Shown here: positions 25,066-41,615 of the stretch, in pieces
How the letters are laid out: each line of letters begins with the position of its first letter
Position numbering within the stretch: position 1 is the first letter of the stretch
Assembly: GCA_013416395.1 (NCBI GenBank)
Contig: JACCEP010000007.1
Location: forward strand, 1 to 64,000
Direction: 5' to 3'
DNA length: 64,000 bases
Origin: Alcaligenaceae bacterium
GTDB taxonomy: Bacteria; Pseudomonadota; Gammaproteobacteria; Burkholderiales; Burkholderiaceae_B
The notes under the pieces: model-generated
Databases searched by the model: none
Seen by the model: the letters and a program-made list of their open reading frames with translations, nothing else
What the model was told of the DNA's origin: nothing
Translations under genes and position numbers: made by a program

Positions 25066-25132
25066 CGTGTCTCCTGGATTGTGGATGAGTCCTGCTGAAT
25101 CCTGAACCAGCAAGATTACAAGCAGTCAATAA

Positions 25133-25158
25133 TACAATCCTATAGAACTCTACAATCC
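25133..25158. promoter_or_regulatory. Direct repeat upstream of lyase gene, candidate regulatory site
   Basis: TACAATCC occurs at 25133-25140 and again at 25151-25158, with the first copy inside ATAATACAAT. The arrangement TAGAACT followed by ACAATC is also present at 13994-14006 upstream of the PrpD gene. It lies in the promoter region of the minus-strand lyase/receptor operon. Confidence 0.4.
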
Positions 25159-25191
25159 AATGCAAGGATGAAAATGCGGGTTGCCGACGAG

Positions 25192-25636: not shown

Positions 25637-26063
25637 GCTTGCCCGTCAGAATAATTCAGCCCTGAGCAGATTAATCAAACACAATAATAAATAAATTACG
25701 ACGATTGAAGAAGCGAACCGTTGCAAACATTTTAAACAAACTTACCGCTTAAAATAAGAAGTTGTATACAGTGACACTACGGACTTGAAGCGTCGGTGCG
25801 AGGACGGTTGGCAAATCGACTTATTCATCGAGCAGTTAACGGATTAGTCAATCAAATGTTACAGACACGCATTAAGACCAGCAACTATTAGAAATAATTT
25901 GAGGTTATTATTAGCATCTTAAAAAAATAATTTTGGCTGTTTACCAAATGGCATTAGGCTCGAACAATTAGCCTTTTAACACCCAACAAAGCAGTCCTAT
26001 AGCCAACAGACTGATCATCACAAGCGGCGTGCATACGCCGCATCAACCGGAATCAACATTAAG
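25637..26063. promoter_or_regulatory. AT-rich leader region upstream of the cellulose operon
   Basis: This gene-free stretch is much richer in A and T than its surroundings, with runs such as AATAATAAATAAATTA and TTAAAAAAATAATTTTGG. It probably holds the bcs promoter and could be a target of a nucleoid silencer. I could not assign a convincing -35/-10 pair. A strong hairpin lies at its 3' end (separate entry). Confidence 0.5.
26024..26041. promoter_or_regulatory. GCGGCGT-GCAT-ACGCCGC inverted repeat before bcsD
   Basis: Seven-base perfect arms with a four-base loop, ending 22 bases before the bcsD start. It stands out as GC-rich within AT-rich DNA. It could be a regulator operator or an mRNA hairpin affecting initiation; no U-run follows, so it is not an ordinary terminator. 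Confidence 0.5.
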
Positions 26064-26516
26064 ATGGAAAGCCACGTCATTAGCTACCTGGAAAGCCAGC
26101 GTCGGGGAGCGCAATGGGAATTGTTTTTACGTTCACTAGCCGTTTCGCTGCAAAATTGGGCGCCGAGCGACACCTTACGTAAATTGATGCGAGACGCTGG
26201 TGTACACACCGGGCAAGATTTAGTATTGCCCACGTGTGAAACTCTGATCGATTTAGAAGCAGCCGCAAATGAACACTGGACACGCATGGGCTGGGGATTT
26301 GTGAAAATCCAAGAACAGCATGATTGCATTTCGATTACTCATGATTACGCACCACTAGAGGCCGTATTTGGAAGAGAAGCCATGGAATGGGTTGGTAGCT
26401 TTCTAGAGGGCATTTATCAACAGTGGTTTGTGTTCTTAGGTGCTGGAGATGGCCTGCAGGTCAAACAAGTTGGCGTCAGCGACACAGGTGCATTGAATTA
26501 TAAATTTGGTCGTTAA
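26064..26516 (+). CDS. bcsD: Cellulose synthase subunit D
   Basis: 150 residues, close to the 156 of Komagataeibacter AcsD/BcsD. Recognisable stretches are QWELFLRSLAVSLQ near the N-terminus, LEAAANEHWTRMGWGFVKI and HDYAPLEAVFG in the middle, and FLEGIYQQWFVFLGAG towards the C-terminus. In the type I systems BcsD is a periplasmic octameric ring that guides nascent glucan chains. It begins the operon here. The start codon has only a weak site (GGAATC about 13 bases away). Confidence 0.85.
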   Translation: MESHVISYLESQRRGAQWELFLRSLAVSLQNWAPSDTLRKLMRDAGVHTGQDLVLPTCETLIDLEAAANEHWTRMGWGFVKIQEQHDCISITHDYAPLEAVFGREAMEWVGSFLEGIYQQWFVFLGAGDGLQVKQVGVSDTGALNYKFGR

Positions 26517-26599
26517 TATGAACGGTGCCCAAAGCCGCATACGGATCTTCGGCATATTGGTGCCCCGCATTACTGACCAAACGTCCTATGGTATTAACG

Positions 26600-27040
26600 A
26601 TGAAGAACCCTAACGACATTACGAACTTATTTGCCTTTTTTGATGAAAAATCGGCTGATCAATATCGTGAAATCAGCGGCAGCAACGAGCAGCTTGAGGC
26701 GCGCAAGCGCTGGCCGCTATTCAAGCAGTCCTCTTTGGGCAGCACTCCACCTTCTAGTGTCGACCAACACTCTGCCAACCAGGCGCCCCCGAAACAATGC
26801 GAACCACAGGCGGACAAGCCCGTGCGGGCGACTGCCGCCAAGCTCACAGAGCCGCCGGCGACCTGTTCTAGTCCAGATGTTCGTGGCGACGCAGTGGCTG
26901 CCACTGACCTGCGTACCGTGTTTGCTCGGCTGGAGCGTACGAATGAGACGGTGGTGTCGCTCCCAGTGCCTCCTGATGAGCCGACGCCAGAGCCCGCGTC
27001 ATCCATGCAATCCCTATTTAGCCGACTGCGCAAGGCATGA
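26600..27040 (+). CDS. bcsP: Cellulose biosynthesis protein BcsP with BcsR-like N-terminus
   Basis: 146 residues from the ATG at 26600 (MKNPNDITNLF); the frame extends to 26525 without conserved sequence. Residues about 20-43 (YREISGSNEQLEARKRWPLFKQ) resemble the YADIS...KRWPLL core of BcsR, the small regulator that binds BcsQ and BcsA in enterobacteria. The centre (50-110) is proline-rich and probably disordered. Two similar short motifs end the protein: TVFARLERT (about 113-121) and SLFSRLRKA (138-146). BcsP proteins accompany BcsQ in betaproteobacterial type I operons; inferred role is localisation or assembly of the synthase. Confidence 0.75.
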   Translation: MKNPNDITNLFAFFDEKSADQYREISGSNEQLEARKRWPLFKQSSLGSTPPSSVDQHSANQAPPKQCEPQADKPVRATAAKLTEPPATCSSPDVRGDAVAATDLRTVFARLERTNETVVSLPVPPDEPTPEPASSMQSLFSRLRKA

Positions 27041-27350
27041 AAATCATCGCTGACAGTATGTTTTTTGCCCAAGGTCTTTGCTGATTTCTGCTTGTATTTG
27101 GTATTTTCGACGTCATGCGCAGTCTCTTTTACCCTACATCTGCTACTAGGACAAACCAGTATTTATCGTTAAAAATCGCGAATGTTGACAAAACCTGACA
27201 ATGTTTTGCAATATTTAATGTTACTTTTCTGTGTTGCAAATTTTGGGGTGGTCGAGCAAAGGCAATGCGGATAAGTGAGCGTTAAAGTACGCTAAATCCA
27301 GCCTTGGCCGTATTAATTACGCCCGTTACTGCCTTGGTAGGTAATCAGAA
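27041..27350. other. Non-coding gap inside the bcs operon
   Basis: About 310 bases without a gene. It includes TTGACA at 27185-27190 followed 19 bases later by AATATT, a possible weak promoter that could give bcsQ-A-B separate expression from bcsD-P. No terminator-like hairpin was seen. Confidence 0.35.
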
Positions 27351-27494
27351 ATGAAACGCACTATGACCATCACGTCCCTTCGTGGATCTCATGCCGCTGT
27401 TTCTTCTGATAAGCCGGTATCCCATTTTTTCTCGCGCAGCTCGCTAATGTTTCTTGAAAAGCAGTCACTGCTTGTCCTGGAGCATCAGCCATGA
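27351..27494 (+). CDS. Small ORF (47 aa) translationally coupled to bcsQ
   Basis: ATG at 27351 with GGTAGG 10 bases upstream; 47 codons, ending in a TGA that overlaps the bcsQ start as ATGA. The peptide reads MKRTMTITSLRGSHAAVSSD, then a hydrophobic-aromatic half HFFSRSSLMFLEKQSLLVLE. No family recognised. The position directly before bcsQ is that of bcsR in enterobacteria, but the sequence does not match BcsR. The minus strand also has a frame here, without family features. It may be a real small subunit or a leader that couples translation. Confidence 0.5.
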   Translation: MKRTMTITSLRGSHAAVSSDKPVSHFFSRSSLMFLEKQSLLVLEHQP

Positions 27495-28267
27495 AAATCC
27501 TCTCGGTCCTCTCGACCAAAGGAGGCGTTGGCAAAAGTACAATTTCAGCCAACCTAGCCGTGGCGCTTCAACTGTCCGGGCACCAGGTGCTCGCTATTGA
27601 TCTAGACCCTCAAAACGGCTTGGGCTACCACTTTTCGCTTGATCTCGACAACGATACGGGGCTGGTGCACGCCTCCAGTCAGCCTGAATCGTTAGCTGCA
27701 TCCATCCGGCGCACCGCATCAGGCCTGTCACTGATTCCTTACGGGGTTTACAGCGAAACGCAACGCATTGCGTTTGAGTCAATATTGGCCCAACAGCCTC
27801 ATTGGTTGCGCGATACTTTGTACGGACTCAATCTAGATCCCAATGTCATCGTAGTACTCGATACGCCACCAGGAGCCTCCGTCTATATGATGCAAGCGCT
27901 CTCGGCTGCCACAGAGGTAGTTGCGGTCGTGTTGCCAGATGCAGGCTCTTACGTCACCTTGCCACAGCTGCTAAATCTGATAGAAACGTACAGCTCGCAC
28001 CAGCCACATTTTCGCGATTATGGCGTCATCATCAATCAAATGAACCAGACGCGCCTTCTGAGCAAAGACGTCGCGAATGTGTTGCGTTCGACCTTCGCCA
28101 ACCGCCTCATCGGGACGGTGCATTACGATCAGGCGATTAGCGAAGCGCTAGCCTTTGGTCAGAGTGTTTTCGAGTATGCCCCTCATAGCGAGGCTGCTCA
28201 TGACATTCTGAATTGTGCCAAGGGGATTATTGACCGTCTCGCCACCGATGGCTACGTGGTGTCCTGA
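27491..28267 (+). CDS. bcsQ: BcsQ, MinD/ParA-like ATPase of cellulose synthesis
   Basis: 258 residues (YhjQ/WssA-type). The deviant Walker A KGGVGKS is at 10-16 and IDLDPQNGLG follows as the A'/switch motif; DTPPGASVYMMQAL is Walker B. Known BcsQ proteins localise the synthase and support its assembly. The gene overlaps both the small ORF upstream (ATGA) and bcsA downstream (TGATG), so all are translationally coupled. Confidence 0.93.
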   Translation: MKILSVLSTKGGVGKSTISANLAVALQLSGHQVLAIDLDPQNGLGYHFSLDLDNDTGLVHASSQPESLAASIRRTASGLSLIPYGVYSETQRIAFESILAQQPHWLRDTLYGLNLDPNVIVVLDTPPGASVYMMQALSAATEVVAVVLPDAGSYVTLPQLLNLIETYSSHQPHFRDYGVIINQMNQTRLLSKDVANVLRSTFANRLIGTVHYDQAISEALAFGQSVFEYAPHSEAAHDILNCAKGIIDRLATDGYVVS

Positions 28268-30441
28268 TGATGGAAAAGTTTGAAAACTGGCTGGTTGGTC
28301 TTTCCTTATGGCGCCATGGATGGGTCCGGGGCGTAAGCTTGGTAATTGCCGGCCTGCTGGGCCTGGCTGTGGTGCTGACTCCCTTTGATCTGAGCTACCA
28401 GTTTGCCTTTGCAGTGCTAACGTTCGCTATTGCTTATGCACTGAACAAATTATCGCCGGCGCGTTACATCACGCTGGTGCTAATGTCTATTTCAGTGGCG
28501 ACATCGCTGCGATACATGTATTGGCGTGTCACGAATACTCTGGGCTTCGAGACTTGGCTGGATATCATTTTTGGCTATGGCCTGTTGCTTGCAGAATTCT
28601 ATGCCTTGACGGTGCTGCTGCTAAGCTACTTCCAGTCGGCCTGGCCCTTGCATCGCAAGCCTGTAATGCTGCCCGCCAATATGGATGTGTGGCCGAACGT
28701 AGACATTTATATTCCGACTTATAACGAGCCTCTAAGTGTCGTGCGTCAAACGGTACTTGCCGCACTGTCACAGGACTGGCCTGCCGATCGGCTTAACATT
28801 TACCTGCTGGATGACGGGCGACGTGATGAGTTTCAAGAATTTGCCAGCCTGGCCGGAGTGGGTTACCTGAGGCGGGATAATAATGAACACGCAAAGGCCG
28901 GTAATATCAACGCGGCCTTAGCCCGCACAGACGGCGAATTCATTGTGATCTTTGATTGCGACCACATTCCCAGTCGTTCGTTTTTACAAATATGCATGGG
29001 CTGGTTTCTGAAGGATCCCAATCTGGTCATGCTCCAAACACCTCACGTGTTTTTTTCGCCTGACCCACTCGAGCAAAATCTCGAGATCTTTCATAATGTA
29101 CCCAACGAAAGCCATCTGTTCTACGGATTAACACAAGATGGCAATGACCTCTGGAATGCCACTTTTTTCTGTGGGTCTTGTGCCGTTCTGCGTCGTGAGC
29201 ACCTGCTGGCGGTTGGCGGCATGGCCGTCGAGAGCGTCACCGAAGATGCACTGACAGCACTCAAGATGAACCGCCTGAGTTTTAATACGGCTTATCTGGC
29301 GATTCCCCAAGCGGCGGGACTGGCGACCGAAAACTTATCACGGCATATTGGTCAACGGATACGCTGGGCCCGAGGCATGGCACAGATCTTCCGTAGTCAC
29401 AATCCGATGCTGGGCAAAGGTCTGGCCTTCAGCCAACGAATCTGTTATTTAAGTGCGGCGCTGCACTTCTTCTATAGCCTGCCCCGCGTAGTGTTCCTGA
29501 CGACGCCACTGGCGTTCCTATTTTTTGGAGCACATGTATTTCATGCCTCCGCCCTGCTAATTGTTGTGTACGCCGTGCCTCATATTCTTCATGCGCAGCT
29601 TACCAACTTTCGAATCCAGGGCAAGTTCCGCCACACGCTTTGGAATGAAATTTTTGAGTCAGTCCTGGCTTGGTACTTAATGCGCCCTACCATAGCGACG
29701 TTGTTCAAACCGGATAGCGCCAAGTTCAACGTCACCGCGAAGGGTGGCACAAACGAACACTCCTACTTCGACTGGATGTTGGCACGGCCGTACATCATTT
29801 TGTTGAGTCTTAATCTCATCGGCATGATGGTCGGCATCGTTATGCTCCTCTGGGGCAAAGGTGACACAAGCAACGCACTGGCCATCATGATTAATATGGT
29901 CTGGACCATGCACAATGTTGTGATCTGCAGCGCCAGCATAGCGGTTGCGGGCGAACGACGCCAAGTACGGGGGTCGCCGCGCGTCAGAACTAATTTACGC
30001 GCCACGTTGGGGTTGCCTAATGGACACCGTATCGCGTGTACGGTCAGCGACTTCTCTCAGAATGGTCTTGGTCTGGTATTGCCTGCTCCAATGGGGCTGG
30101 CAGTTGGCGATGCAGTGGATATTTCCCTGTTCCGAGGTGATGAAGAAGAGGTCTTTCCAGCAACCGCGCGCTTTGTTAAGGATGATCGCCTGGGTGTGCG
30201 TTTCGATGACCTTTCGATTGCACAGCAGATTGCGTTGACTCAAATGACGTTCGCCCGCGCAGATATTTGGGCGAGGGTCTGGAATGCGTCGGTACCTGAT
30301 GCTCCGTTGCAAGCTCTCAAGCAAATTAGTGCTATTGGCTGGCGTGGCTTTAGCCTTTTAGCTACGGAGACATGGCGTGAGGTTGGCCGCAACGCACGCA
30401 ATCTGACTGGGCGAGTCTCTAAATCTGAGGCCGAGCGGTGA
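28267..30441 (+). CDS. bcsA: Cellulose synthase catalytic subunit (UDP-forming)
   Basis: 724 residues. Processive GT2 glycosyltransferase with all key motifs: DDG at 182-184, DCD at 230-232, FFCGS at 300-304, TED at 325-327 (catalytic base) and QRIRW at 363-367. The gating loop FNVTAKGG is at 487-494. The C-terminal PilZ domain has RRQVR at 564-568 and DFSQNG at 595-600, the RxxxR and DxSxxG cyclic di-GMP sites, so activation by cyclic di-GMP is expected. About eight membrane helices. Polymerises UDP-glucose into beta-1,4-glucan and translocates it. Overlaps bcsB1 by 4 bases (GTGA). Confidence 0.97.
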   Translation: MMEKFENWLVGLSLWRHGWVRGVSLVIAGLLGLAVVLTPFDLSYQFAFAVLTFAIAYALNKLSPARYITLVLMSISVATSLRYMYWRVTNTLGFETWLDIIFGYGLLLAEFYALTVLLLSYFQSAWPLHRKPVMLPANMDVWPNVDIYIPTYNEPLSVVRQTVLAALSQDWPADRLNIYLLDDGRRDEFQEFASLAGVGYLRRDNNEHAKAGNINAALARTDGEFIVIFDCDHIPSRSFLQICMGWFLKDPNLVMLQTPHVFFSPDPLEQNLEIFHNVPNESHLFYGLTQDGNDLWNATFFCGSCAVLRREHLLAVGGMAVESVTEDALTALKMNRLSFNTAYLAIPQAAGLATENLSRHIGQRIRWARGMAQIFRSHNPMLGKGLAFSQRICYLSAALHFFYSLPRVVFLTTPLAFLFFGAHVFHASALLIVVYAVPHILHAQLTNFRIQGKFRHTLWNEIFESVLAWYLMRPTIATLFKPDSAKFNVTAKGGTNEHSYFDWMLARPYIILLSLNLIGMMVGIVMLLWGKGDTSNALAIMINMVWTMHNVVICSASIAVAGERRQVRGSPRVRTNLRATLGLPNGHRIACTVSDFSQNGLGLVLPAPMGLAVGDAVDISLFRGDEEEVFPATARFVKDDRLGVRFDDLSIAQQIALTQMTFARADIWARVWNASVPDAPLQALKQISAIGWRGFSLLATETWREVGRNARNLTGRVSKSEAER

Positions 30442-32705
30442 CAGCCTTCGCGGTAGATACAGGCAAGGTCCGTTTGACAAAATTCTACTTTTGTCTGGGT
30501 CTGCTAATCATAGCGCTGCTTGCGGGGGCCGTGCGGGCGCAGACAATCGATGCCGGTGCCGATAAGCGCCCAGATAGTACCCACTATGCCCTCGCGCTTC
30601 AGCAAATAGGCAATCTTGATGACGATTTGGCGCTGCGCGGCGTGGACGACCGTCAGGGCCTGCCCTTTGGTATACGCTCAGATCAGCGCGTAAAACGTTT
30701 GCAGCTAGACTTGGCCTATCGTCGCTCGCCCGCCTTGATCGAACAGCTGTCACATTTGAACATCCTGCTTAACGGCGAGGTAGTGTCCACGATCTCGCTC
30801 TCGGAGCCTCGACATGACGAAGACGGATGGAATAGCGTAAAAGCCGATCTGCCCACCCAGCTTTTGCAACCCTATAACCAGTTGGCGATTCAACTCATTG
30901 CGCACTATACGTTGCGCTGTGAAGACCCTGTCCACCCAGACTTATGGGCAGATATCGGCAAGCAAAGCCGCCTCATATTCGATGTAGAGCCTTTGGTTCT
31001 ACCTGACGAGCTTGGCTTGTTGCCCAGCCCATTTTTCGATCCTCGTGACGTGCGTCGCCTGAACCTGCCAATTGTGATCAGCGGTGTTACGGATGCGCGT
31101 CTGGAGGCCGCAGGCGTCCTGGCCTCGTGGTTCGGTGCCATGGCTGGATATCGTGGTGCCCACTTTCCTGTGAGCACAGATACATTGCCCGAGCACGGGA
31201 ACGCCGTGTTCATTGGCCGTGCCGCAGATGGGGTGGCTGGTATGAACCTGCCCGAACCGGTCGGGCCTACGGTCACGATACGTCCTAATCCAAATGACCC
31301 GACTGGCAAGATGCTGATAGTCACTGGCCGTAACGACGAAGAAATCATGTCGGCAGCAAAGGCTTTGGCTCTGGGCGCCCAGACGCTAAGTGGCGCTACG
31401 GCGCAGTTGAACAAGCTGCAGGTCGAGCCGCGCCAGCCCTACGATGCTCCTAACTGGTTACCCACCAATCGGCCGGTGACGCTTGGCGAATTGTTGCCGG
31501 TTGATGACCTGACCCGGCGAGGGCGTGCCGCACCCCCTATCAGCATCAATCTGAACCTGCCCCCTGACCTGTCCAACTGGCGTATCAAAACCGTGCCGAT
31601 TAAGCTGCGCTATCAACAATCGACAACTTCCGATGATGACGAAGGGGCCCTGAACGTCTCTGTTAACCATACCCATATTGCCCGGTTCCCACTTGCCGAC
31701 CGCATGAAAACCGGCCAACAATGGATGAGTGGTGATCTTTCCGCAATACAACGGACAGTGCATGTTCCACTAGACAAGCTGGGGTCACTGGCAAGTATGC
31801 AGTTTCAATTTGGGTACCGGGTACCGCCCCAGGAGGAGTGCCGAAACAGTCTGTTGGATAGCCGGCGCAGCGCCATTGACCCAGAATCCACCATTGATCT
31901 GTCGGGGATACCACACCATATCGCGATGCCGGATCTCGCCGCCTTCAGCACTTCAGGCTTTCCCTTTACGCGCATGGCAGATCTCTCTGAGACTATCGCC
32001 ATTGTGCCCGCACAGTCTGGCCCATCGGAGTATGGAGCACTTTTGACTTTACTGGGGCGCGCGGGGCGAGTCACTGGGTATCCGGCGACAGGCATAAAGG
32101 TGAAGCATGGCGCCGAGGCAGCTGATTTGGTCGGTAAAGACATCTTACTGATCGAGTCAGGTAAGCCATCGCCTTTATTAACTCAATGGGCAGACCGGCT
32201 ACCGCAGGCCGAACGTTCGGACAACCAAGCAGCTGCCGTTTCAGGCTGGAAGCCGGGCGACATCATAACTCGGCTATCGAACCTATTAGGCACCCGTACA
32301 CACCCCTCGCCAACTGCGGTTTCAGCGCGCTCGAGTCCAGCTTACTTTGCCGGATTCGAGTCACCCGTATCCTCAAGCCGCAGCGTCATCGTGGCACGAG
32401 GAAAAGATGGTCAACAACTGCTTAGCGCAGTCGAGTTGCTCATTGATAATGAAGCACAGGCGCAGCGCGTGCAGGGCGGGCTATCGATTGTTTATGACAA
32501 TCGTGTGGAGTCTGTGTCCAAAGGCCGAACCTACTACGTCGGCAATCTGGGTTTCTATCAAACCACACTATGGTTTTTCGGCCGCTATCCGCTGGCGCTG
32601 ATTGCCGTGTATTTGCTCGGCGCCTTGCTGGCCGGGGCTGTTTTTTATTCGATTTTGCACGCACGGGCGCGGCAACGTCTGCGAATTCAGGACTCAGATG
32701 AGTAA
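30438..32705 (+). CDS. bcsB: Cellulose synthase regulatory subunit BcsB, first tandem copy
   Basis: 755 residues. GTG start overlapping the bcsA stop. Signal peptide to about residue 35, then paired carbohydrate-binding and flavodoxin-like domains: TLRCEDPVHPDLWADI, ASWFGAMAGYRGAHFP, TGRNDEEIMSAAKALALG, LDLSGIPHHIAMPDLAAF-like segments, and FAGFESPVSSSRSVIV. A C-terminal membrane helix (ALIAVYLLGALLAGAVFY) anchors it next to BcsA. In known complexes this helix is needed for catalysis. A second complete bcsB follows after 19 bases, which is unusual. Confidence 0.93.
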   Translation: MTAFAVDTGKVRLTKFYFCLGLLIIALLAGAVRAQTIDAGADKRPDSTHYALALQQIGNLDDDLALRGVDDRQGLPFGIRSDQRVKRLQLDLAYRRSPALIEQLSHLNILLNGEVVSTISLSEPRHDEDGWNSVKADLPTQLLQPYNQLAIQLIAHYTLRCEDPVHPDLWADIGKQSRLIFDVEPLVLPDELGLLPSPFFDPRDVRRLNLPIVISGVTDARLEAAGVLASWFGAMAGYRGAHFPVSTDTLPEHGNAVFIGRAADGVAGMNLPEPVGPTVTIRPNPNDPTGKMLIVTGRNDEEIMSAAKALALGAQTLSGATAQLNKLQVEPRQPYDAPNWLPTNRPVTLGELLPVDDLTRRGRAAPPISINLNLPPDLSNWRIKTVPIKLRYQQSTTSDDDEGALNVSVNHTHIARFPLADRMKTGQQWMSGDLSAIQRTVHVPLDKLGSLASMQFQFGYRVPPQEECRNSLLDSRRSAIDPESTIDLSGIPHHIAMPDLAAFSTSGFPFTRMADLSETIAIVPAQSGPSEYGALLTLLGRAGRVTGYPATGIKVKHGAEAADLVGKDILLIESGKPSPLLTQWADRLPQAERSDNQAAAVSGWKPGDIITRLSNLLGTRTHPSPTAVSARSSPAYFAGFESPVSSSRSVIVARGKDGQQLLSAVELLIDNEAQAQRVQGGLSIVYDNRVESVSKGRTYYVGNLGFYQTTLWFFGRYPLALIAVYLLGALLAGAVFYSILHARARQRLRIQDSDE

Positions 32706-32724
32706 TAGAAGGAGAGAACACCAA

Positions 32725-35034
32725 ATGACAGTTTGCGCTGTGCCCTCGCGTTGTGGCATTTCACTAATAAGAATTGTCTTGCTGGCCTTTTCACTGGCAG
32801 CCGGCGCGCACGCCCAAAGCTTGCCGCAGATGGATGATACGCCAGCACCGGCTGATGCAGTCGAACATGTGCCCGAGACCGAGACAGCTAAGGCCCTCGT
32901 GCCGCAGTACAAACTCACGCTCGAACAACTAGGCGCGCGTTATCCGTTCTACCTGCGAGGCGTAGATGGGAGCGATAGTGTTCCATTCAATATTCGTGCG
33001 GACGAAGTCGTCACCGCGGCCAAGGTTAACCTGACCTATAGTTATTCGCCGGCGCTCCTGAGCGATCTTTCACACATTAATGTATTGATCAACGATGAGG
33101 TGGTAACAACGTTGATGGTGCCGCGTGACGAAGCAGGAAAAACGCTGCAACGCAGCGTCGAGTTGCCGCCCTCGCTGATCACTGAGTTCAATCATCTGCG
33201 CCTGCAACTTATCGGACACTACACCCTCGAATGCGAAGATCCAGTGCACTCCAGCCTGTGGGCTAGCGTCAGTAACAAAAGCCAATTAGATCTGGCGGTG
33301 CAGCGTATATCCTTACCGGAAGAGCTATCGATATTGCCGCTGCCCTTCTTTGATTATCGGGACACGCGGCCTCTGGACCTGCCCTTCATTTTTAGCAACG
33401 ACAAGGACGCCGCTGTAATGGAATCAGCGGGAATGGTCGCTTCCTGGTTTGGCGCTCTGGCCGGCTATCGTGGTGCCTCGTTTCCTGCCAATTTTGATGG
33501 CGGATATCCACGCCAAGGAAATGGCATTGTATTCGTCAAGGGCAACACAGCGAGCTTCGGGCACATGGATGCCATTTCCGGACCAACGCTGGCCGTAGCC
33601 GCTAATCCCAACGACGAATTTGGCAAACTGCTCTTGATTGCCGGACGCAATGACGAAGAAATAAAACGCGCCGCACAAGCATTGGTTACCGGTGGCGCGA
33701 CGCTCTCCGGCCAGGTTGCGCTTATTACTGAACTGGATCAGCTCTCTGCCCGCAAGCCTTACGATGCCCCTAATTGGCTGCAGACTGATCGTCCGGTCAA
33801 GTTCGGCGAGCTCGTTTCCGAGCAGGCTCTGAGTGCCACTGGCTATAACAATGCGCCGGTGCGTCTGCCGCTGCGACTGCCGCCTGATCTCTTTGGTTGG
33901 CGAGCAAAGCCAGTGCCTGTAGATTTACGCTATCGCTATACGCCACAGCCGGGCCAGGTGAACTCTGCATTATTGATCAGTGCGAAAGCGCAGTTTCTGA
34001 AATCCTTTCCCCTGCGTTCAGCAGACCAAATCAATGACAAGAACTGGCTAAAGAGCCTGTCATCCGACGAGATGCTGCCCATTCATGCCAAGGTGGAAAT
34101 CCCGTTGGAGCGTTTGATGTCGCGCTCTGAACTTGAGTTCAAGTTCATGTATGACTACGTAAAAGAAGGCGCATGTCGCGATATCATTATTGATAATGTT
34201 CGTGGACGCATCGATCCCGATTCCACGTTAGACTTGACACACTACCCACACTTTATCCCTTTGCCGGATCTGGCAGCTTTCGGTAACAGTGGTTTCCCGT
34301 TTACCAGATTGGCTGATCTGTCCCAAACAGCAGTTGTGCTCTCGGACCAGCCATTCACCGAAGACGTAACTACTTATCTAACGTTGATGGGCCGGTTCGG
34401 CATGTCAACCGGCTACCCAGCTACACACGTCACGGTGGCCTATGGGCAATCGAAACTGGAACAAGCCGATAAAGATTTGATCATCATTGCATCAGGTGAA
34501 CAGGGCTGGCTATCCGACTGGGCTAAATACATGCCAGCAAGCCTTAGCGGCCAGAACAAACGCTTTGGCACGTCAGACTTGACGCAAAAAATCCGCGACT
34601 GGATCACGCCTGATCCGCGCGAATCTCAACGGCCAGTCCGTACTGATTTGGCGTATACCAGCAAAGGCGCCAACGCGTTGTTTGCCGGGTTCGAATCCCC
34701 CGTAACTGCCGGCCGAAGCGTGGTTCTGATCGCCAGCGGAGAGCCCCAAGGACAGGCCTACGCCGTTAATGCTCTCTTGGGTAAAAAGGGCTACGAGCAA
34801 GGTTTGCAGGGCAGCTTGGTTGTTGTGCGTGAGCAGCGGCTGAATCCATTGATTGCAGAGTACACCTACTCCAACGGCAGGTTAGGTCTGTGGCGGCAGA
34901 TTGAATGGACAGTGGCTCAATACTGGCCAAATCTGCCAGCATTCAACCGCGTGCTGGGGTCTGTGGCCGTGCTACTACTATTAATTTCAGCGTTCATCGG
35001 CTGGCGTCTGTGGCGCAAGCCGCGACGAGCCTGA
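32725..35034 (+). CDS. bcsB: Cellulose synthase regulatory subunit BcsB, second tandem copy
   Basis: 769 residues from the ATG at 32725, which has AAGGAG 11 bases upstream; in-frame codons further upstream overlap bcsB1. Signal peptide (LLAFSLAAGAHAQ), the same domain order as the first copy (TLECEDPVHSSLWASV, ASWFGALAGYRGASFP, AGRNDEEIKRAAQALVTG, FAGFESPVTAGRSVVLI) and a C-terminal membrane helix (VLGSVAVLLLLISAFIGW). The two copies are clear paralogues but well diverged, so duplication is old or both were acquired. It keeps every hallmark, so it is not a decaying copy. Confidence 0.93.
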   Translation: MTVCAVPSRCGISLIRIVLLAFSLAAGAHAQSLPQMDDTPAPADAVEHVPETETAKALVPQYKLTLEQLGARYPFYLRGVDGSDSVPFNIRADEVVTAAKVNLTYSYSPALLSDLSHINVLINDEVVTTLMVPRDEAGKTLQRSVELPPSLITEFNHLRLQLIGHYTLECEDPVHSSLWASVSNKSQLDLAVQRISLPEELSILPLPFFDYRDTRPLDLPFIFSNDKDAAVMESAGMVASWFGALAGYRGASFPANFDGGYPRQGNGIVFVKGNTASFGHMDAISGPTLAVAANPNDEFGKLLLIAGRNDEEIKRAAQALVTGGATLSGQVALITELDQLSARKPYDAPNWLQTDRPVKFGELVSEQALSATGYNNAPVRLPLRLPPDLFGWRAKPVPVDLRYRYTPQPGQVNSALLISAKAQFLKSFPLRSADQINDKNWLKSLSSDEMLPIHAKVEIPLERLMSRSELEFKFMYDYVKEGACRDIIIDNVRGRIDPDSTLDLTHYPHFIPLPDLAAFGNSGFPFTRLADLSQTAVVLSDQPFTEDVTTYLTLMGRFGMSTGYPATHVTVAYGQSKLEQADKDLIIIASGEQGWLSDWAKYMPASLSGQNKRFGTSDLTQKIRDWITPDPRESQRPVRTDLAYTSKGANALFAGFESPVTAGRSVVLIASGEPQGQAYAVNALLGKKGYEQGLQGSLVVVREQRLNPLIAEYTYSNGRLGLWRQIEWTVAQYWPNLPAFNRVLGSVAVLLLLISAFIGWRLWRKPRRA

Positions 35035-35055
35035 TAGCACTTATAGCGAAGATCT

Positions 35056-36279
35056 ATGATGGGAATCCGTCACCGGTTACTGCGTCTTGATCCATGGATC
35101 ATGCGGCTATGGTGCGCCTTGTTGCTGCTGCTGTGTCAAATGCCGATGGCGTCGGCACAGCAGCACTGCACAGTACATTGGCCACTATGGAACGATTTTC
35201 GCACGCATTTCGTTCAAGACAGTGGACGCGTCCTCGATGCCAGCACCGACAAGCAGCACAGCTCGTCCGAAGGGCAGTCTTACGCCATGTTCTTTGCTTT
35301 GGTCGCCGGCGATCGTACGACTTTCGACCGGCTCTGGGAATGGAGTATCAACAACCTGGGGGCCGGCGATCTCAGCCAACAACTACCTTCCTGGATATGG
35401 GGCCGGGCTGACGATAATACGTGGCGTGTACTGGATGACAACTCTGCATCGGATGCGGATCTGTGGTTTGTATATGCCTTGCTGGAGGCCGGTAGATTAT
35501 GGCAAGAACCCAACTACACGCGTCAGGCGCACGCCTTACTGGCACTGGTCGAGTCACAAGAGTTGGCCGATCTGCCGGGGTTTGGCCTGATGTTATTGCC
35601 GGGCAGGCGCGATTTTATTAAGCATGAAGACAATGCCTGGCAGCTTAATCCCAGCTATCTGCCCATGCCTTTGCTGCGACGCCTGCAAAGCGAGTCGCCT
35701 TCTGGCCCTTGGGGTCGCATTGCCAACAACACGGCGGCATTAATGGAGGTGGTGTCTCCTCTTGGGCTTGCACCAGACTGGGCCACCTACCAAGTACTCG
35801 ATCCATCGCCACTGTTTATCACAGACCCCATCAAAGGGCCCGTAGGCAGCTATGATGCCATTCGCACCTATTTATGGGCTGGCCTGACTGCTCCAGAAGA
35901 TCCGTTGTACTCACGTATGTTGAAGGCACTCAATGGCATGGTTGCCTTGACGCGAGATCAAGGTGGTGTGCCGCCTGAATCGGTCGACATGACGACGGGG
36001 GTCTCCAAAGGTACAGGCCCATTTGGTTTTTCAGCTGCGTTGATGCCTTATTTCAAAGCCAAGGGCCAGTCGGTACTACTCACGCAGCAACAAACACGCG
36101 TCGACGCCATGCTCCGTAAATCGGTACTATCCGACAGCTCGCAGCAAGGCCAACCGCCCTATTACGACTATGTGCTCAGCCTGTTTGGCATGGGCTGGAT
36201 CAATAACTATTTCCGTTTCAAACCTGATGGAACGCTATCGATATCGTGGGAGAAGGAATGTCTCGGTACAAGCAACTAG
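35056..36279 (+). CDS. bcsZ: Periplasmic endo-beta-1,4-glucanase (GH8)
   Basis: 407 residues, with signal peptide ending about MASAQ (35). Glu72 in SSSEGQSYAM is the catalytic acid and Asp267 in GSYDAIRTYLWAG matches the base of E. coli BcsZ; WGRADDNTW and NSASDADLW line the cleft. BcsZ trims misfolded glucan in the periplasm and is needed for normal secretion. Starts 21 bases after bcsB2 and overlaps the start of bcsC by about 22 bases. Confidence 0.94.
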   Translation: MMGIRHRLLRLDPWIMRLWCALLLLLCQMPMASAQQHCTVHWPLWNDFRTHFVQDSGRVLDASTDKQHSSSEGQSYAMFFALVAGDRTTFDRLWEWSINNLGAGDLSQQLPSWIWGRADDNTWRVLDDNSASDADLWFVYALLEAGRLWQEPNYTRQAHALLALVESQELADLPGFGLMLLPGRRDFIKHEDNAWQLNPSYLPMPLLRRLQSESPSGPWGRIANNTAALMEVVSPLGLAPDWATYQVLDPSPLFITDPIKGPVGSYDAIRTYLWAGLTAPEDPLYSRMLKALNGMVALTRDQGGVPPESVDMTTGVSKGTGPFGFSAALMPYFKAKGQSVLLTQQQTRVDAMLRKSVLSDSSQQGQPPYYDYVLSLFGMGWINNYFRFKPDGTLSISWEKECLGTSN

Positions 36280-39200
36280 CCCTGGGCCTGTGCGTGGCGC
36301 TTTTGCCAACAGCAGGATGGGCCCAGGACAATACAACCAAGACGTTGGTTGACCAGGGCAATTACTGGCAGACGCGCAACGATGGCGCGCGTGCGGCTGA
36401 GGCCTGGAACAAGCTGCTCCTCATCAGCCCGGACAATCCGCAGGCCCTGTATGGCCTGGCTACGCTAAAGCTGGCTGACAAGCAGCTGGGCGATGCGCGA
36501 GGCTATTTGCAAAAGCTCAAGTCAGCCAACCCGCAAAGTTTGTTGGTGCCATTGCTGGAACAAGATATTCTTTTGCACACTGGCAAAAACATGGAAGCTC
36601 TTGAGCAGGCGCGCTTGCAGGCAACCTCAGGTGAGTTAGATCAGGCTATCGCGGGCTACAAAAAAGCCTTGGGTGGCCAACCGCCGCAAGGGAAAATTGG
36701 ATGGGAATACTACACCTACCTGGGCTATACGAACGGCGGGCTGCCCGAGGCAATTGCGGGTTTACAGCGACTGGCTAAACAGTGGCCTAATGATCCGCAG
36801 ATCGCCCTGTCACTGGCGCGCCATCTGGCTCGTAACGAAGCTACTCGCCCAGAAGGTATCAGAAGGCTGGCAGTGTTGGCCGAACGCAAGGACATCGGTA
36901 GCGAAGTCACCGAGATCTGGCGCGATGCGTTGACATGGCTTGGCGCTCCGAACGCAGATACACGCCCGTTGCTCGAGCAGTACCTGGTCAAACACCCCGA
37001 TGACCAGGAAATTCGCCTACAGTTGCAACAGGGTGCAAAGAGCAAGGTCGAACCTACACGTGCCGCAAAAACAGCAAGCGTGCCGCGTGCCGACCCCTTA
37101 CGAGACCGTGCAGATCGCGCGATGAAGTTGCTCGATCAGGGTGACACGGCGCGTGCTGAGGCGGAATTCGAGGCTATTTTAGCCAAACGCCCCAACGATA
37201 ATCAGGCCTTGGGCGGCATGGGTATAGTGCGCATGCACCAGAGCAACTGGGCAGATGCTCGCACGTACCTTACAAAAGCGCGCCGCGGCAATCAGGCTTG
37301 GCAGCAAGCGTTAAGCTCCGCCGAGTACTGGCATGATATCGAGCAGGCAGACGCCTTGCGCCAGGCAGGCAAAACCCAAGACGCACAAAAACTGCTGATA
37401 CAAGCGACCAAGCGCCAGCCCACAGAAGTGGCTGCGAACGTGATGTTGGCAGACTTGCAATTGGACGATGGCAACACAGCTCAAGCCAAGGCTGCTTATC
37501 AAGATATCTTGCGACTCAAACCGGATAGCGCCGGAGCCTTAGAGGGTCTGGCCAAGGTGGCACGCCAGTCAGGCGATGTCGAGTCGGCCCGCCGTTCACT
37601 CGAAGACGCCTTGGGCGCTGATCCAGGCAACCCATGGTTGCGTTATCAACTGGCACAGCTATATCAAGAAGAAGGCCGAACGCAAGACGCCCGTGGCTTG
37701 ATCGATGGTTTGCTTTTGACGAACCCCAATGACCCTCAGGCCTTGTATGTAAGCGCGATGATGGCGAATGAACGCGGGGACCTGGCGACAGCTTATGGCA
37801 CGCTCAACCGTGTACCAACTGGCCAACGCACTGCCCCGATGCAAAGTTTCTACACGTCGGTCAGCCGCAAACTCCAGATTCAGCAGGCTGTGCAGCTTGG
37901 TCGCGCGGGGCGTAAGCCGGAAGCTTTGGCCATGCTTGTGCAAATCGAACAGAGCGCAGATGCAAATGATATCGAAACCCTGGGGGCTGTAGCGCGCGCA
38001 TACGCTCAGATGGGTGAATTAGCTCGTGGTCTGGCGGTGCTACGACCGCTGCGCCAACAGGGAGGTGCTCGCAGCGTGGATGCCTCGCTGACTTATGCCG
38101 GCCTTTTGCTAAGTTCGAATCAAGATGTCGAGGCCGCAATCGTCATGCGCCAATTGGCTACCCAACAGATGACAACCACTCAGCGAAAATCTCTGGAAAA
38201 TCTGTCTGACGCATACCGCATACGCCAGGCCGACGCGTTACGTCAACGGGGAGATCTGCCCGCTGCCTACGATATGCTCGCGCCTGTTCTGGCAAAGAAA
38301 CCCAAAAATCCTGATGCCATTGCGGCGCTGGCGCGTATGCACGCCGCCTCAGGAAATGGCACCAAAGCTTCCGCGTTGTATGAAGACTTACTTCGATCCG
38401 ATCCCGATAACGCCATCCTGCATTTAGGGGCTGCACAAGTTGCGCAACAACTGAAAAATGATCGCGATGCAGCACGCCAGGCGCGGATCGCTGTGTCGCT
38501 AGCACCCGAACAGATTGATATCCTTAGTGGCGCAGCCCGCGTACTCCGGGCCCAGGGTAAGACCTCCGAGGCTGAGGAACTGCTGAAAAAAGCCGTGGCG
38601 TTGGAAACTTCTCAGTCAAGTGCAGTCGCCGCCGTCGGTGCGCCGAACTTCGCTTTAGTTGCGCAACCGCAAACGCCTGAAGACATCATCGCGCCCTTGC
38701 TACCGGGGCCAGGGTCAAGACTGGGAACAGGACTAGAAACAGGATACATTCCAAGCTCAGAAACGGGACCCAAAACAAGATCCATAGCAGGATCTGCAAC
38801 GGGTCCCATCGCAGACCCCATAACAGGATCAGCAACGCGGCCGGTAACAGCGCAAGATCAAGGGATGGGACAAAGATACGGATCGGGATCGGGATCATCT
38901 TCGGATCAGATGCTGGCGGCAGCTCCGCTTTCCGCGCGCACTGCGGCGAACCCTTTCGCGCCCGGAGCGTCTCAGGATCAACAAGCTTTGAGCGCAGAGG
39001 TAGCCCGCGCAGCCATGTCACCACTGGGCCGTGAGCTGGATGACATCCAACAAGAACGCAGCCCCGAGATACGCGTAGGAACCGAGTTTCACAGCCGTAG
39101 TGGCGATGCAGGCACGAGCAAGCTTGAGCAGGCACAACTGCCGGTCGAAATACGCTTCCCCGTGGGCAACGGTAAAGCAAATGTGCGTGTGACGCCCGTC

Positions 39201-40235
39201 GCACTGAGCAGCGGTTCCTTAAGCAGCAACCCTTATGCGCGCGGTACATTCGGCGGTGGTCCACAGGCCTTCTTGAATGATTCTTCGATACCAAACACTA
39301 AGAACCAAAAAGGTGTGGGCTTGTCGGTGGGTTATGAAATGCCTGGCGTAACGCTGGATGCCGGCGTCACACCGCTAGGCTTCCAGGAGCAGTCGTTTAC
39401 TGGTGGTGTCTTGTTTGATGGCACGTTGGACAACGCCGGTACCGTCAGCTACCGCCTGGACCTGTCGAGCCGACCGGTGACCGATAGCGTCTTGTCGTTT
39501 GCAGGCATGAAGGACGAGCGCACAGGCCAGGAATGGGGTGGCGTTTCCGCCACAGGGGCACGCTTGACACTGTCCAAGGATTTTGGCGACGCAGGGATAT
39601 ATGGCAGCGCGGCATGGCATAGTCTGCAAGGCAAAAACGTGGCGTCGAATCAACGTACGGAAATCAACGCCGGCACGTACTTCCGTCTGGTCGATGAGCC
39701 CAACACCAAGGTCACTGCGGGTGTGAACCTGAACGCCACGTTCTATAACGAAAACCTTAGCCACTTCACGTATGGCCATGGCGGTTACTTCAGCCCCAGG
39801 CAGTATTATGGCCTTGGCCTGCCGTTTACTTGGGCGCAACGTCAAGGTCGACTGACCTGGCGAGTGGACGGCGCAGTTGGCGTTCAAAAGTTCTCGCAGG
39901 CGGACGCTCCATTTTTTCCAAACAATGCCAATATGCAGGCCGGAGTCCAGTCCGCACTTGCCCGACTCAATCGCCCAGAGCTGGGCGGCTTGAGCGATGG
40001 CATGTATCGGGGACAGAGCAAAACGGGCGTGGGCTATAACTTGCGGGCGTCTGCCGAGTACCGCCTGGCGTCCTCCTGGGCGTTGGGTGCCACGGCGGGT
40101 GCAGATAACGCCAGCGATTATCGCCAATGGTCCGGTGGCTTATACCTGCGCTACTACTTTCATCCGCAAGCCGGCTTGATGAGCCTTCCCGTGGAACCCT
40201 ATCGCTCTCCTTATGGAGAAACCTTTGGTCGCTAA
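36258..40235 (+). CDS. bcsC: Cellulose export protein BcsC (TPR scaffold and outer-membrane barrel)
   Basis: 1325 residues from the ATG at 36258, which has GGAG 5 bases upstream; a GTG at 36246 is less likely. Signal peptide ends near AGWAQ. Residues about 25-795 are TPR repeats (for example EAWNKLLLISPDNPQALYGLATL, AEAEFEAILAKRPNDNQALGGMG). Residues about 820-890 form a low-complexity linker of repeated S/T-G-P/S units. Residues about 940-1325 are the BcsC beta-barrel domain (NPYARGTFGGGPQAF, GFQEQSFTGGVLFDGTLDNAG, YFSPRQYYGLGLPF). It carries cellulose across the outer membrane. Confidence 0.94.
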   Translation: MSRYKQLALGLCVALLPTAGWAQDNTTKTLVDQGNYWQTRNDGARAAEAWNKLLLISPDNPQALYGLATLKLADKQLGDARGYLQKLKSANPQSLLVPLLEQDILLHTGKNMEALEQARLQATSGELDQAIAGYKKALGGQPPQGKIGWEYYTYLGYTNGGLPEAIAGLQRLAKQWPNDPQIALSLARHLARNEATRPEGIRRLAVLAERKDIGSEVTEIWRDALTWLGAPNADTRPLLEQYLVKHPDDQEIRLQLQQGAKSKVEPTRAAKTASVPRADPLRDRADRAMKLLDQGDTARAEAEFEAILAKRPNDNQALGGMGIVRMHQSNWADARTYLTKARRGNQAWQQALSSAEYWHDIEQADALRQAGKTQDAQKLLIQATKRQPTEVAANVMLADLQLDDGNTAQAKAAYQDILRLKPDSAGALEGLAKVARQSGDVESARRSLEDALGADPGNPWLRYQLAQLYQEEGRTQDARGLIDGLLLTNPNDPQALYVSAMMANERGDLATAYGTLNRVPTGQRTAPMQSFYTSVSRKLQIQQAVQLGRAGRKPEALAMLVQIEQSADANDIETLGAVARAYAQMGELARGLAVLRPLRQQGGARSVDASLTYAGLLLSSNQDVEAAIVMRQLATQQMTTTQRKSLENLSDAYRIRQADALRQRGDLPAAYDMLAPVLAKKPKNPDAIAALARMHAASGNGTKASALYEDLLRSDPDNAILHLGAAQVAQQLKNDRDAARQARIAVSLAPEQIDILSGAARVLRAQGKTSEAEELLKKAVALETSQSSAVAAVGAPNFALVAQPQTPEDIIAPLLPGPGSRLGTGLETGYIPSSETGPKTRSIAGSATGPIADPITGSATRPVTAQDQGMGQRYGSGSGSSSDQMLAAAPLSARTAANPFAPGASQDQQALSAEVARAAMSPLGRELDDIQQERSPEIRVGTEFHSRSGDAGTSKLEQAQLPVEIRFPVGNGKANVRVTPVALSSGSLSSNPYARGTFGGGPQAFLNDSSIPNTKNQKGVGLSVGYEMPGVTLDAGVTPLGFQEQSFTGGVLFDGTLDNAGTVSYRLDLSSRPVTDSVLSFAGMKDERTGQEWGGVSATGARLTLSKDFGDAGIYGSAAWHSLQGKNVASNQRTEINAGTYFRLVDEPNTKVTAGVNLNATFYNENLSHFTYGHGGYFSPRQYYGLGLPFTWAQRQGRLTWRVDGAVGVQKFSQADAPFFPNNANMQAGVQSALARLNRPELGGLSDGMYRGQSKTGVGYNLRASAEYRLASSWALGATAGADNASDYRQWSGGLYLRYYFHPQAGLMSLPVEPYRSPYGETFGR

Positions 40236-40265
40236 ACCTCACCTCAACGCTAAGTTAATTAAATT

Positions 40266-40928
40266 ATGCTGACATCCGTTTTTGCTGGTTTAACAATTCT
40301 GATGATTGGCGACAGCCATCTGACGACACCCAATTATTTAATTGAGTCCTTGCATATGGACCTCGAACGGGCAGGGGCGCAAGTACACACCTTAGGGGTC
40401 TGCGGCACAAACGCCGACGACTGGCTCAAAACTGTACCTGGTACATGCGGGGCGGCGGAACGCCTGGGCGACGAGAAGGTAAAACTTCTGGGTCGTACGG
40501 CACCCACGACGCCTATTGTCGAACTTCTGGCAAAGGATAAGCCCGACTTGCTGCTGATTGTGATGGGCGATGCCATGGCGGGCTATGACAAAGATGTCTT
40601 CCCCAAGGCCTGGGTGTGGCAGCAGGTGACGGCCCTAACCAAAGCGATAGGCACGACCCAAACCGCCTGCGCCTGGGTAGGCCCAGCCTGGGGAACCGAG
40701 GGGGGCAAGTATAAAAAGACATATGCTCGTGTCAAACAAGTATCGGCCTTTCTCAAAAACAACGTTGCCCCTTGCGAGTATATCGACTCTCTTACGCTAT
40801 CCAAGCCCGGCGAGTGGGCCACGACCGATGGGCAGCATTTTACTGCTTCAGGCTATCAGACTTGGGGCGACGAAATTGCCAAAACCTTGGCAACCATGCC
40901 AGTGGTGCAAGGATTAAAGAAAAAATGA
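40266..40928 (+). CDS. wssF: SGNH/GDSL hydrolase-like protein, WssF type
   Basis: 220 residues, about the length I recall for Pseudomonas WssF. SGNH blocks visible: MIGDSH (residues 13-18, nucleophile Ser17), GVCGTNADDW (block II Gly), LIVMGDAM (block III, with the usual Asn replaced) and DGQHFTASGY (block V Asp and His). Known: WssF takes part in acetylation of cellulose. No signal peptide is visible and a stop at 40260-40262 rules out extension. It overlaps the next gene as ATGA. Name is by context and similarity of layout. Confidence 0.7.
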   Translation: MLTSVFAGLTILMIGDSHLTTPNYLIESLHMDLERAGAQVHTLGVCGTNADDWLKTVPGTCGAAERLGDEKVKLLGRTAPTTPIVELLAKDKPDLLLIVMGDAMAGYDKDVFPKAWVWQQVTALTKAIGTTQTACAWVGPAWGTEGGKYKKTYARVKQVSAFLKNNVAPCEYIDSLTLSKPGEWATTDGQHFTASGYQTWGDEIAKTLATMPVVQGLKKK

Positions 40929-41605
40929 ACCGGATGAAAACCATGAAGGTGTTTGTCGCAATGGTGCTAACCCTAGGCATGAGCGGTGGCTCATGGGGAA
41001 CTGAGATCGAGCTTTATCCGACTGGGCCATCAGCAGATTCTGCATTCCTGCGTTTTGTGGATGGTGACGCAAAGGGTTTACGCGTCATTGCGTCGGGCTC
41101 CAAATTAGAACTTCGCCTGGATGCCGGGCAGCGTGCCAGTCAGTTTCGATCGGTGGCTGGAGGCTCCAAGATCAACGGTCAACTGTTGACGGATCACAGC
41201 CAGGCTAATGTGGATCTAACACTTAAGCCAGGCGAGTTCATCACAGTTATGGGAACCACGGTTAACGGTACGTTACAAGCCCTGACCCTGCGAGAAACGC
41301 CCGACGACTTCAGCGCGATTAAAGCATCAGTGGTCTTCTACAACATGAACGCGCAATGCGCGCCAGCCACGTTAAAAGTGGCGGGACGCACCGTTAACTT
41401 GTTTGAAGGTATCGCGAAAGATGCCTCCACCCGCCGACAAGTTAATCCAGTCAAGCTCGCGGTGCAGTTAGTGTGCGCCGGGAACCCCGTCGGGGAACCC
41501 GTCGACATGGGCACTTTAGTTGCCGGAGAACGCTACTCGATTTTCCTGGCACCTGGCGACCCGGCAGATCGGTTTTTCTACGTAAAGGACGCAGTAGCAA
41601 ACTGA
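40925..41605 (+). CDS. wssG: AlgF-like cellulose acetylation protein, WssG type
   Basis: 226 residues from the ATG at 40925 (ATGA overlap with wssF, AAGGA site). Signal peptide MNRMKTMKVFVAMVLTLGMSGGSWG. Mature protein is beta-rich with AlgF-like features (ELYPTGPSADSAFLRFVDG, FYNMNAQCAPATLKVAGR, VDMGTLVAGERYSIFL). AlgF-type proteins act in the periplasm in acetyl transfer to alginate or cellulose. Located between wssF and the MBOAT gene, as in Pseudomonas fluorescens wss. Confidence 0.82.
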   Translation: MNRMKTMKVFVAMVLTLGMSGGSWGTEIELYPTGPSADSAFLRFVDGDAKGLRVIASGSKLELRLDAGQRASQFRSVAGGSKINGQLLTDHSQANVDLTLKPGEFITVMGTTVNGTLQALTLRETPDDFSAIKASVVFYNMNAQCAPATLKVAGRTVNLFEGIAKDASTRRQVNPVKLAVQLVCAGNPVGEPVDMGTLVAGERYSIFLAPGDPADRFFYVKDAVAN

Positions 41606-41615
41606 TTGGATTAGC

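Follow-up and report, generated by a model that had tools for sequence, protein, structure and literature searches.

Two diverged bcsB genes in tandem in an Alcaligenaceae cellulose operon: a possible division of labour in the BcsB crown

Introduction

The question raised by this locus is why a single cellulose operon should carry two genes for BcsB, the co-polymerase of the cellulose synthase BcsA. The pair lies in a stretch of 64,000 nucleotides from an Alcaligenaceae bacterium (assembly GCA_013416395.1, contig JACCEP010000007.1, positions 1 to 64,000), hereafter the window, within a complete cellulose operon of the order bcsD-R-Q-A-B1-B2-Z-C that is followed by acetylation genes. A tandem bcsB pair in itself was already known: tandem wssC (bcsB) genes were described in Bordetella avium 197N, where they were called unique among the surveyed genomes and were taken to indicate possibly a divergent mechanism (PMC7112194). 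A partial literature search returned no account of the spread and meaning of such pairs, and an earlier mention is possible; what is new here is the spread of the pair within the family and the asymmetric divergence of its two copies.

In E. coli, one BcsA carries six BcsB subunits, with flavodoxin-like domain 1 (FD1) of one joined to FD2 of the next; the anchor of the first BcsB fits a groove of BcsA formed by transmembrane segments TM1-3, while contacts of the second are limited (PMC11470070). The first tetratricopeptide repeat (TPR1) of BcsC binds the groove between carbohydrate-binding domain 1 (CBD1) and FD1 of the terminal BcsB, the sole subunit with room for it (PMC11379886). Under this arrangement, a subunit confined to the first position would be expected to retain the anchor and FD1 but could do without the BcsC groove, and subunits confined to later positions would be expected to retain body and groove but could do without the anchor. 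We propose that an ancient bcsB duplication split the labour of one BcsB between the two copies, B1 and B2. B1, which keeps the canonical interface helix and anchor, would be the first subunit of the crown and dock in the BcsA membrane groove; B2, whose tail is no longer canonical, would fill the subsequent non-docking position or positions, and its terminal subunit would carry the outer-membrane channel protein BcsC. We give an even chance to this split, in which B1 docks on BcsA and B2 supplies the other crown subunit or subunits and holds BcsC. The first crown position appears to have a gene of its own here.

Two Complete bcsB Genes

The original prediction of two complete, diverged bcsB genes in tandem was borne out, as both frames are intact. 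The gene bcsB1 (30438..32705, forward strand) begins with a GTG at 30438 that overlaps the bcsA stop codon (GTGA, 30438-30441), which agrees with the predicted coupling to bcsA, and it ends with TAA at 32703-32705. After a gap of 19 bases, bcsB2 (32725..35034, forward strand) most likely starts at ATG 32725, preceded by its own ribosome site, AGGAG at 32710-32714, also as predicted; the mechanically called open reading frame (ORF) is longer and begins at TTG 32602. The two proteins are identical at 270 of 684 aligned positions (39%) and are the sole BcsB matches in the source genome. B1 matched the Pfam family BcsB (PF03170) over profile positions 4-605 of 606 (641 bits, E 2.3e-192), and B2 over positions 3-606 of 606 (724 bits scored on the ORF 32602-35034, E 2.3e-217). 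The same six solved-structure sequences, all named BcsB or synonyms, were matched by both copies, more strongly by B2 (424 bits) than by B1 (339 bits), and E. coli BcsB was matched near full length by each (E 7e-100 for B1, 9.5e-126 for B2).

It had also been predicted that both copies keep the signal peptide, the CBD and flavodoxin-like domains, and the C-terminal helix. The near full-length alignment to solved BcsB sequences supports the periplasmic body of CBD-FD-CBD-FD type in B1 and B2, with domain limits that we set on the E. coli BcsB sequence. The membrane helix is kept in both, as a C-terminal hydrophobic core was found by hydropathy in 24 of 24 B1 and 24 of 24 B2 sequences, and low-confidence structure models of each, built from six sequences (mean pLDDT, the predicted local distance difference test, 60.0 and 58.9) and used for helix positions alone, contain an interface helix followed by the membrane helix of the C-terminus. 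The signal peptides are putative: by eye, both N-termini are hydrophobic with AxA-like sites. Omega was 0.065-0.182 in five genome comparisons, indicating at the sequence level that both B1 and B2 are under purifying selection; a pseudogene status of B2 in the window was ruled out by its open frame and the omega of its relatives. A plasmid search with B2 gave 182 records, all below 60% identity.

Distribution of the Pair

All 268 genomes of a family sample were searched, with counts tallied by us from printed tables. BcsB above 500 bits was present in 76 of them, and the pair in 28 of those 76, spanning 14 genus codes; the two copies are adjacent in 26 of these genomes and separated by three genes in the other two. 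The original prediction had set absence of the pair from all relatives as a point that would speak against it, and these 28 genomes answer it. Five family genomes whose BcsB runs off a contig (G017, G021 contig 167, G621, G632 and G607) were not judged for the pair. We had also entertained the reading of the pair as a rare oddity, which was dropped because the pair is widespread within the family.

Besides the pair of the source genome, no adjacent full-length pair was seen among 369 genomes sampled from the class, of which 26 had a match, and one distant adjacent BcsB-like pair was seen among 398 genomes sampled from the phylum, of which 86 had a match; BcsB genes at contig ends in these wider samples (e.g., G565, G485, G266, G872) were not judged. 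The original prediction took one bcsB per operon as normal; within the family, the pair is not rare. The distant pair (locus L157, 3530-6826, genome G763) belongs to another family; its second member is cut by a contig end, and its first frame has no evident membrane tail by eye. No BcsB was found in the other four genomes of the source genus, so that one of five genus genomes has any, be it through gain here or loss in the other four. In locus L062 (6031-8335, genome G001), the second BcsB is spread over two frames.

C-Terminal Tails of B1 and B2

The comparisons below rest on a main alignment of 24 pairs (the window, Robbsia L032 and 22 other genomes), 17 near and 28 other single copies, and E. 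coli BcsB. The 17 near single copies were hand-picked as most B2-like, so their likeness to the B2 body is partly a matter of choice. Loci L132-L135, L137 and L138 gave no BcsB row at our threshold. Four further pairs were fetched later, from genera g4 and g36, which add at most one genus to those already sampled.

The tails separate the two copies most clearly in profile scores, a systematic difference that the original prediction does not mention. The tail of B1 (32532..32702) consists of a YYVG motif, the interface helix, the membrane helix, and a basic end; that of B2 (34867..35031) is altered, with extra residues between the interface helix and the membrane helix (model helices 722-733 and 739-763). 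The tail profile of the 28 other single copies scored B1 above B2 in 24/24 pairs, and that of the 17 near single copies did so in 23/24, the remaining pair, L084, being level (48.0 v 48.1). All four later pairs behaved in the same way with the profile of the other single copies, and the B1 and B2 profiles agreed. Conversely, the B1-tail profile scored above the B2-tail profile in 57 of 58 single-copy BcsB (17/17 near, 28/28 other, and 12/13 new ones), as well as in E. coli BcsB. The sole exception, L150, scored 46.3 with the B1-tail and 48.9 with the B2-tail profile. It is one of six single-copy loci of genus code g26 (L145-L150) whose tails are of canonical length by eye; five of the six have B1 and B2 profile scores within about 3.5 bits, and L146 differs by 15. 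These loci are possible intermediates.

From the tail motif to the end of the hydrophobic core, the median span is 38 residues in B1, as it is in single copies, and 45 in B2, which places the membrane helix of B2 about 7 residues further out than that of B1 (by medians); the ranges touch, and a misplaced hydrophobic window accounts for a few outliers. By distance, the tail of B1 is nearer than that of B2 to E. coli in 19 of 24 pairs and to the near single copies in 22 of 24. A motif count for the basic tail end was dropped, since it marked only 1 of 28 distant single copies. The distances to E. coli and to the near single copies, here and below, do not include L033_1 and L033_2, which share their locus with L067; L062_2 and L062_3, a single gene split between two frames; or the incomplete sequences L127_1, L128_1, and L129_1. 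L062_1 was counted among 29 other single copies in the E. coli comparison, removed from the column analysis onward (28), and labelled S in the tree.

The tail anchors of B1 and B2 thus behave as predicted for genes dedicated to separate positions. They also bear on the idea of two alternative complexes, BcsA-B1 and BcsA-B2, each serving other conditions or a product with another acetylation, for which one may cite that both genes are intact and under purifying selection. This idea is improbable: the B2 tail departs from the canonical form, 57 of 58 single-copy tails are of B1 type, the two genes stand 19 bases from each other in one operon with one bcsA, and promoter-like sites in window positions 25000-44700 are at chance level (11 found vs 12.2 expected).

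Bodies and Evolutionary Rates

In the body, as opposed to the tail, B2 is mostly the copy that lies closer to E. coli BcsB and to the near single copies. Of the 24 pairs, those with B2 closer than B1 to E. coli BcsB number 22 for CBD1, 15 for FD1, 18 for CBD2, and 21 for FD2, and those with B2 closer to the near single copies number 24, 22, 23, and 24, respectively; profiles of the other single copies scored B2 above B1 for CBD1 (24/24), CBD2 (21/24) and FD2 (21/24). As whole bodies, the near single copies (n = 17) fit the B2 profile better, and 6 of the 13 newly fetched single copies fit the B1 profile better. Columns conserved in B2 and the near single copies and lost in B1 number 12/50 in CBD1, 2/50 in FD1, 8/49 in CBD2, and 1/44 in FD2; positions 163 and 165 (E. 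coli numbering), discussed below, are among them.

The rates of change give, in large part, the same asymmetry between tail and body. They were estimated on 21 of the 24 pairs, the near-duplicate genomes L076, L082, and L083 being left out. With a fixed topology, the B1/B2 ratio of tree lengths was 2.52 for CBD1, 1.09 for FD1, 2.30 for CBD2, 1.80 for FD2, and 0.67 for the tail. Simpler distances with 100 column bootstraps gave the same order, namely CBD1 1.93 (1.68-2.25), FD1 1.13 (1.04-1.24), CBD2 1.73 (1.51-1.96), FD2 1.36 (1.23-1.50), and tail 0.77 (0.59-0.95). Relative to its own body, the tail evolved at a rate of 0.83 in B1, 2.08 in B2, and 1.09-1.27 in single copies, of which 13 near and 20 other ones entered this analysis. 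Simpler distances with 59 resamples put the tail at 1.04 (0.79-1.24) in B1 and 1.99 (1.65-2.35) in B2; for the single copies they gave 1.40 (1.13-1.71) in the near group and 1.11 (0.95-1.34) in the others. The looseness of the B2 tail is the firm part of these rate results.

FD1, the slowest body domain of B1, deserves separate mention. Its rate relative to the own body was 0.78 in B1, 1.25 in B2, and 0.90-0.98 in single copies; with simpler distances, 0.83 (0.72-0.95), 1.08 (0.90-1.17), 0.90 (0.82-1.05) in near and 0.93 (0.84-1.02) in other single copies. A slow FD1 in B1 and a fast one in B2 would be expected if the FD1 face of B2 were unused, that is, in a short heteromeric unit of one BcsA, one B1, and one B2, with FD1 of B1 paired to FD2 of B2 and no long crown. 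BcsA-BcsB complexes of 1:1 composition from Rhodobacter and Gluconacetobacter (PMC11470070) lend this arrangement some plausibility. However, the bootstrap intervals of B2 FD1 and single-copy FD1 overlap, and FD2 of B2 is no slower than single-copy FD2; we regard the short unit as unlikely, if worth keeping in mind.

Stretches Matching the BcsC-Binding Loop of E. coli

The stretch LPTQLLQPYN of B1 (30849..30878) is the counterpart, by column composition against B2 and the single copies, of the E. coli loop that binds TPR1 of BcsC (residues 159-168); LPPSLITEFN (33163..33192) is its B2 form. Position 163 (E. coli numbering) is L in 24/24 B2 and 16/17 near single copies and in only 4/24 B1, and position 165 is T in 23/24 B2, 16/17 near single copies, and 3/24 B1. 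The loop has therefore changed in B1 at these two positions. The other single copies vary, with L in 17/28 and F in 7/28 at position 163, and T in 9/28 and S in 9/28 at position 165. The first TPR of BcsC is kept, by eye, in the pair loci.

Phylogeny and Gene Order

B2 together with two third copies (B3) forms one clade (support 99/97), and a B1 group of 18 sequences plus L062_1 is supported at 95/95; the tree leaves out 18 rows, comprising near-duplicates and the distant L136_1. Trees with all B1 in a single clade pass the test (p 0.189), but those with B1, B2, and B3 in one clade do not (p-AU, approximately unbiased test, 0.0023), and a duplication confined to the lineage that bears the pair was discarded accordingly. 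The duplication therefore seems to predate the split from the near single copies, which seem to have lost B1, with their remaining BcsB having kept a canonical tail. The fast evolution of B1, with long-branch effects, could bias this dating.

This history also bears on plain redundancy or dosage, in which a duplicated subunit would drift neutrally. Although duplications within exopolysaccharide operons have been described (PMC7112194), such drift is very improbable here, because tail and body diverge in opposite directions in pairs across many genera, omega is well below 1, and the private duplication was rejected.

Among recognised genes, bcsA stands directly before the first BcsB in 24/24 pair loci. 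In L063 and L077, bcsD, a further small gene (BcsR-like in L063), and a second bcsQ are inserted between the copies, so that B1 stays with bcsQ and bcsA, and a second block contains B2 together with bcsD, bcsQ, bcsZ, and bcsC. The gene bcsD is present in the window and in both of these loci. A third BcsB, in L065 (13616-18404) and the matching part of L071, falls in the B2 clade and ends before any membrane helix; it is followed by a BcsC-like TPR protein without an outer-membrane barrel. In L069 (2452-6296, reverse strand), bcsC is separated from the acetylation genes by another copy of bcsZ and by a BcsC-like protein that has no barrel, and bcsC runs over three frames in L068 (9521-13600, genome G036).

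Cellulose Operon and Acetylation Genes

The operon of the window (26064-44285, all genes on the forward strand) opens with bcsD, encoding cellulose synthase subunit D (26064..26516; PF03500, 74.3 bits), a bcsR-like gene (26525..27040; PF10945, 36.6 bits), and bcsQ (27491..28267; PF06564, and TIGR03371 with 222 bits). The gene bcsA (28267..30441) encodes the catalytic subunit (TIGR03030, 857.6 bits) with a PilZ domain (PF07238). Behind the two bcsB genes stand bcsZ, a GH8 endoglucanase gene (35056..36279; NF008305, 473 bits), and bcsC (36246..40235; PF05420, 373 bits), which encodes TPRs plus an outer-membrane barrel. They are followed by a gene in the wssF position (40266..40928), which has no Pfam or NCBIfam match and has homologues in 22/24 pair loci; an AlgF-like gene with an uncertain start (40772..41605; PF11182, 34.8 bits against a cut-off of 34.4); an MBOAT O-acyltransferase gene of AlgI/WssH type (41616..43028; PF03062, 101.9 bits); and an AlgX-type SGNH acetyltransferase gene resembling wssI (43041..44285; PF16822, 242 bits). 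Terminator-like sites in window positions 25000-44700 are at chance level (24 found vs 20.9 expected). The GC content of the operon blocks (0.51-0.57) resembles that of the remaining window (0.52-0.59). A dCache-GGDEF diguanylate cyclase gene (44509-46092, reverse strand) converges on the operon end and is a candidate source of cyclic di-GMP (c-di-GMP) for the PilZ domain of BcsA.

Two or more of the four acetylation genes were found, within the DNA fetched, in 22/24 pair loci and in 10/45 single-copy loci, whose downstream sequence was covered over a shorter stretch. The four later pair loci have acetylation genes as well, and 10 of the 17 near single-copy loci carry them in the fetched sequence. 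Not among the 22 are L070, with no such gene in the DNA fetched, and L066, where the contig ends. The link to acetylation suggested by the original prediction is therefore seen in most pair loci but is not exclusive, since ten single-copy operons are equipped for acetylation with one BcsB; a strict link between the pair and acetylation was dropped for this reason.

The same counts apply to the possibility that the altered B2 tail now binds another membrane protein, for instance the MBOAT acetyltransferase, or has taken on a BcsF-like role, and thereby recruits the acetylation machinery. Besides the acetylation genes of the 22 and the four later pair loci, this idea draws on the placement of E. 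coli BcsF near the anchors of BcsA-distal BcsB copies (PMC11470070). Against it stand the ten acetylation-equipped operons with no second BcsB, the pair of L070 with no acetylation genes in the DNA fetched, and the fast evolution of the B2 tail (2.08 of its body), which leave the new partner a small chance only.

Proposed Division of Labour between B1 and B2

The mixed B1/B2 crown of the original prediction fits the material best when it is read as an ordered division of labour. We infer from the genes the docking of B1 on BcsA, a crown shared by B1 and B2, the binding of BcsC by B2, and the order of the subunits. The more specific form of this proposal, a heteromeric crown of fixed order in which the first place, on BcsA, is reserved for B1 and all later places, the terminal one included, for a B2 that cannot dock and that holds BcsC, is held tentatively and at somewhat less than an even chance.

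Several results weigh against the division of labour. The FD1 profile of the other single copies scored B1 above B2 in 17/24 pairs, and as whole bodies 27 of the 28 other single copies and E. coli BcsB fit the B1 profile better. The statement that B2 keeps the body is therefore limited to the CBDs, FD2, and the near group, and only the near group can be described as combining a B2 body with a B1 tail. FD2 of B1 lost only 1 of 44 conserved columns, though it would be expected to be partly free in a first subunit; in that position it may still rest on BcsA. With simpler distances, the B1 tail is no tighter than single-copy tails. Relative to its own body, FD1 of B2 is faster than single-copy FD1, which is unexpected for a long B2-B2 crown, though the bootstrap intervals overlap. 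As for BcsC, E. coli BcsB itself has F163 and S165, the remaining named contacts of the loop are mostly alike in B1 and B2, and B1 is faster across the whole of CBD1 rather than in the loop alone. Three B1 rows (L063, L064, L077) fall outside the main B1 clade with weak support, the structure models are weak, and the pairs are related, so that the counts are of sequences and not of independent events. Our confidence in the split, at first slightly better than even, was lowered to even because the near single copies had been picked for likeness to B2, the loop difference comprises two positions, and the FD1 intervals overlap.

Comparison with Known Systems

The nearest known case is that of B. 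avium 197N, which shares the tandem BcsB-type co-polymerase in an operon for acetylated cellulose; there, the tandem wssC was called unique, and the available part of that source does not compare the copies (PMC7112194), whereas here the pair occurs in 28 of 268 family genomes with a split between tail and body. The E. coli crown is formed by the same family near full length and has distinct first, middle, and terminal positions (PMC11470070, PMC11379886). It differs in that one gene serves six positions, while here two diverged genes carry different subsets of position-specific features. The window resembles the Pseudomonas wss operon in its bcsABZC-type core and alginate-like acetylation genes (PMC10302187), with the MBOAT (PF03062) and AlgX-type (PF16822) genes found downstream, and differs from it in having two BcsB genes plus bcsD, a bcsR-like gene, and bcsQ. 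Acidobacteria likewise provide a case of two paralogues of a BcsB-containing protein in one genome, but these are fused to BcsA, only one of the two lies in the cellulose locus, and they do not form a tandem BcsB pair (PMC9693552).

Significance

If the fixed order of subunits is true, the crown would be nucleated only at BcsA, with one channel per synthase, whereas in the homo-oligomer of E. coli the roles are set by position alone. With one gene for all positions, it is hard to test in E. coli how several identical BcsB copies come together on one BcsA, and why only the first subunit docks and only the last binds BcsC. Roles split over two genes would allow each crown position to be deleted, tagged, or swapped singly, and such a two-gene system would offer a natural means of studying crown length and the way in which the synthase is coupled to the export channel.

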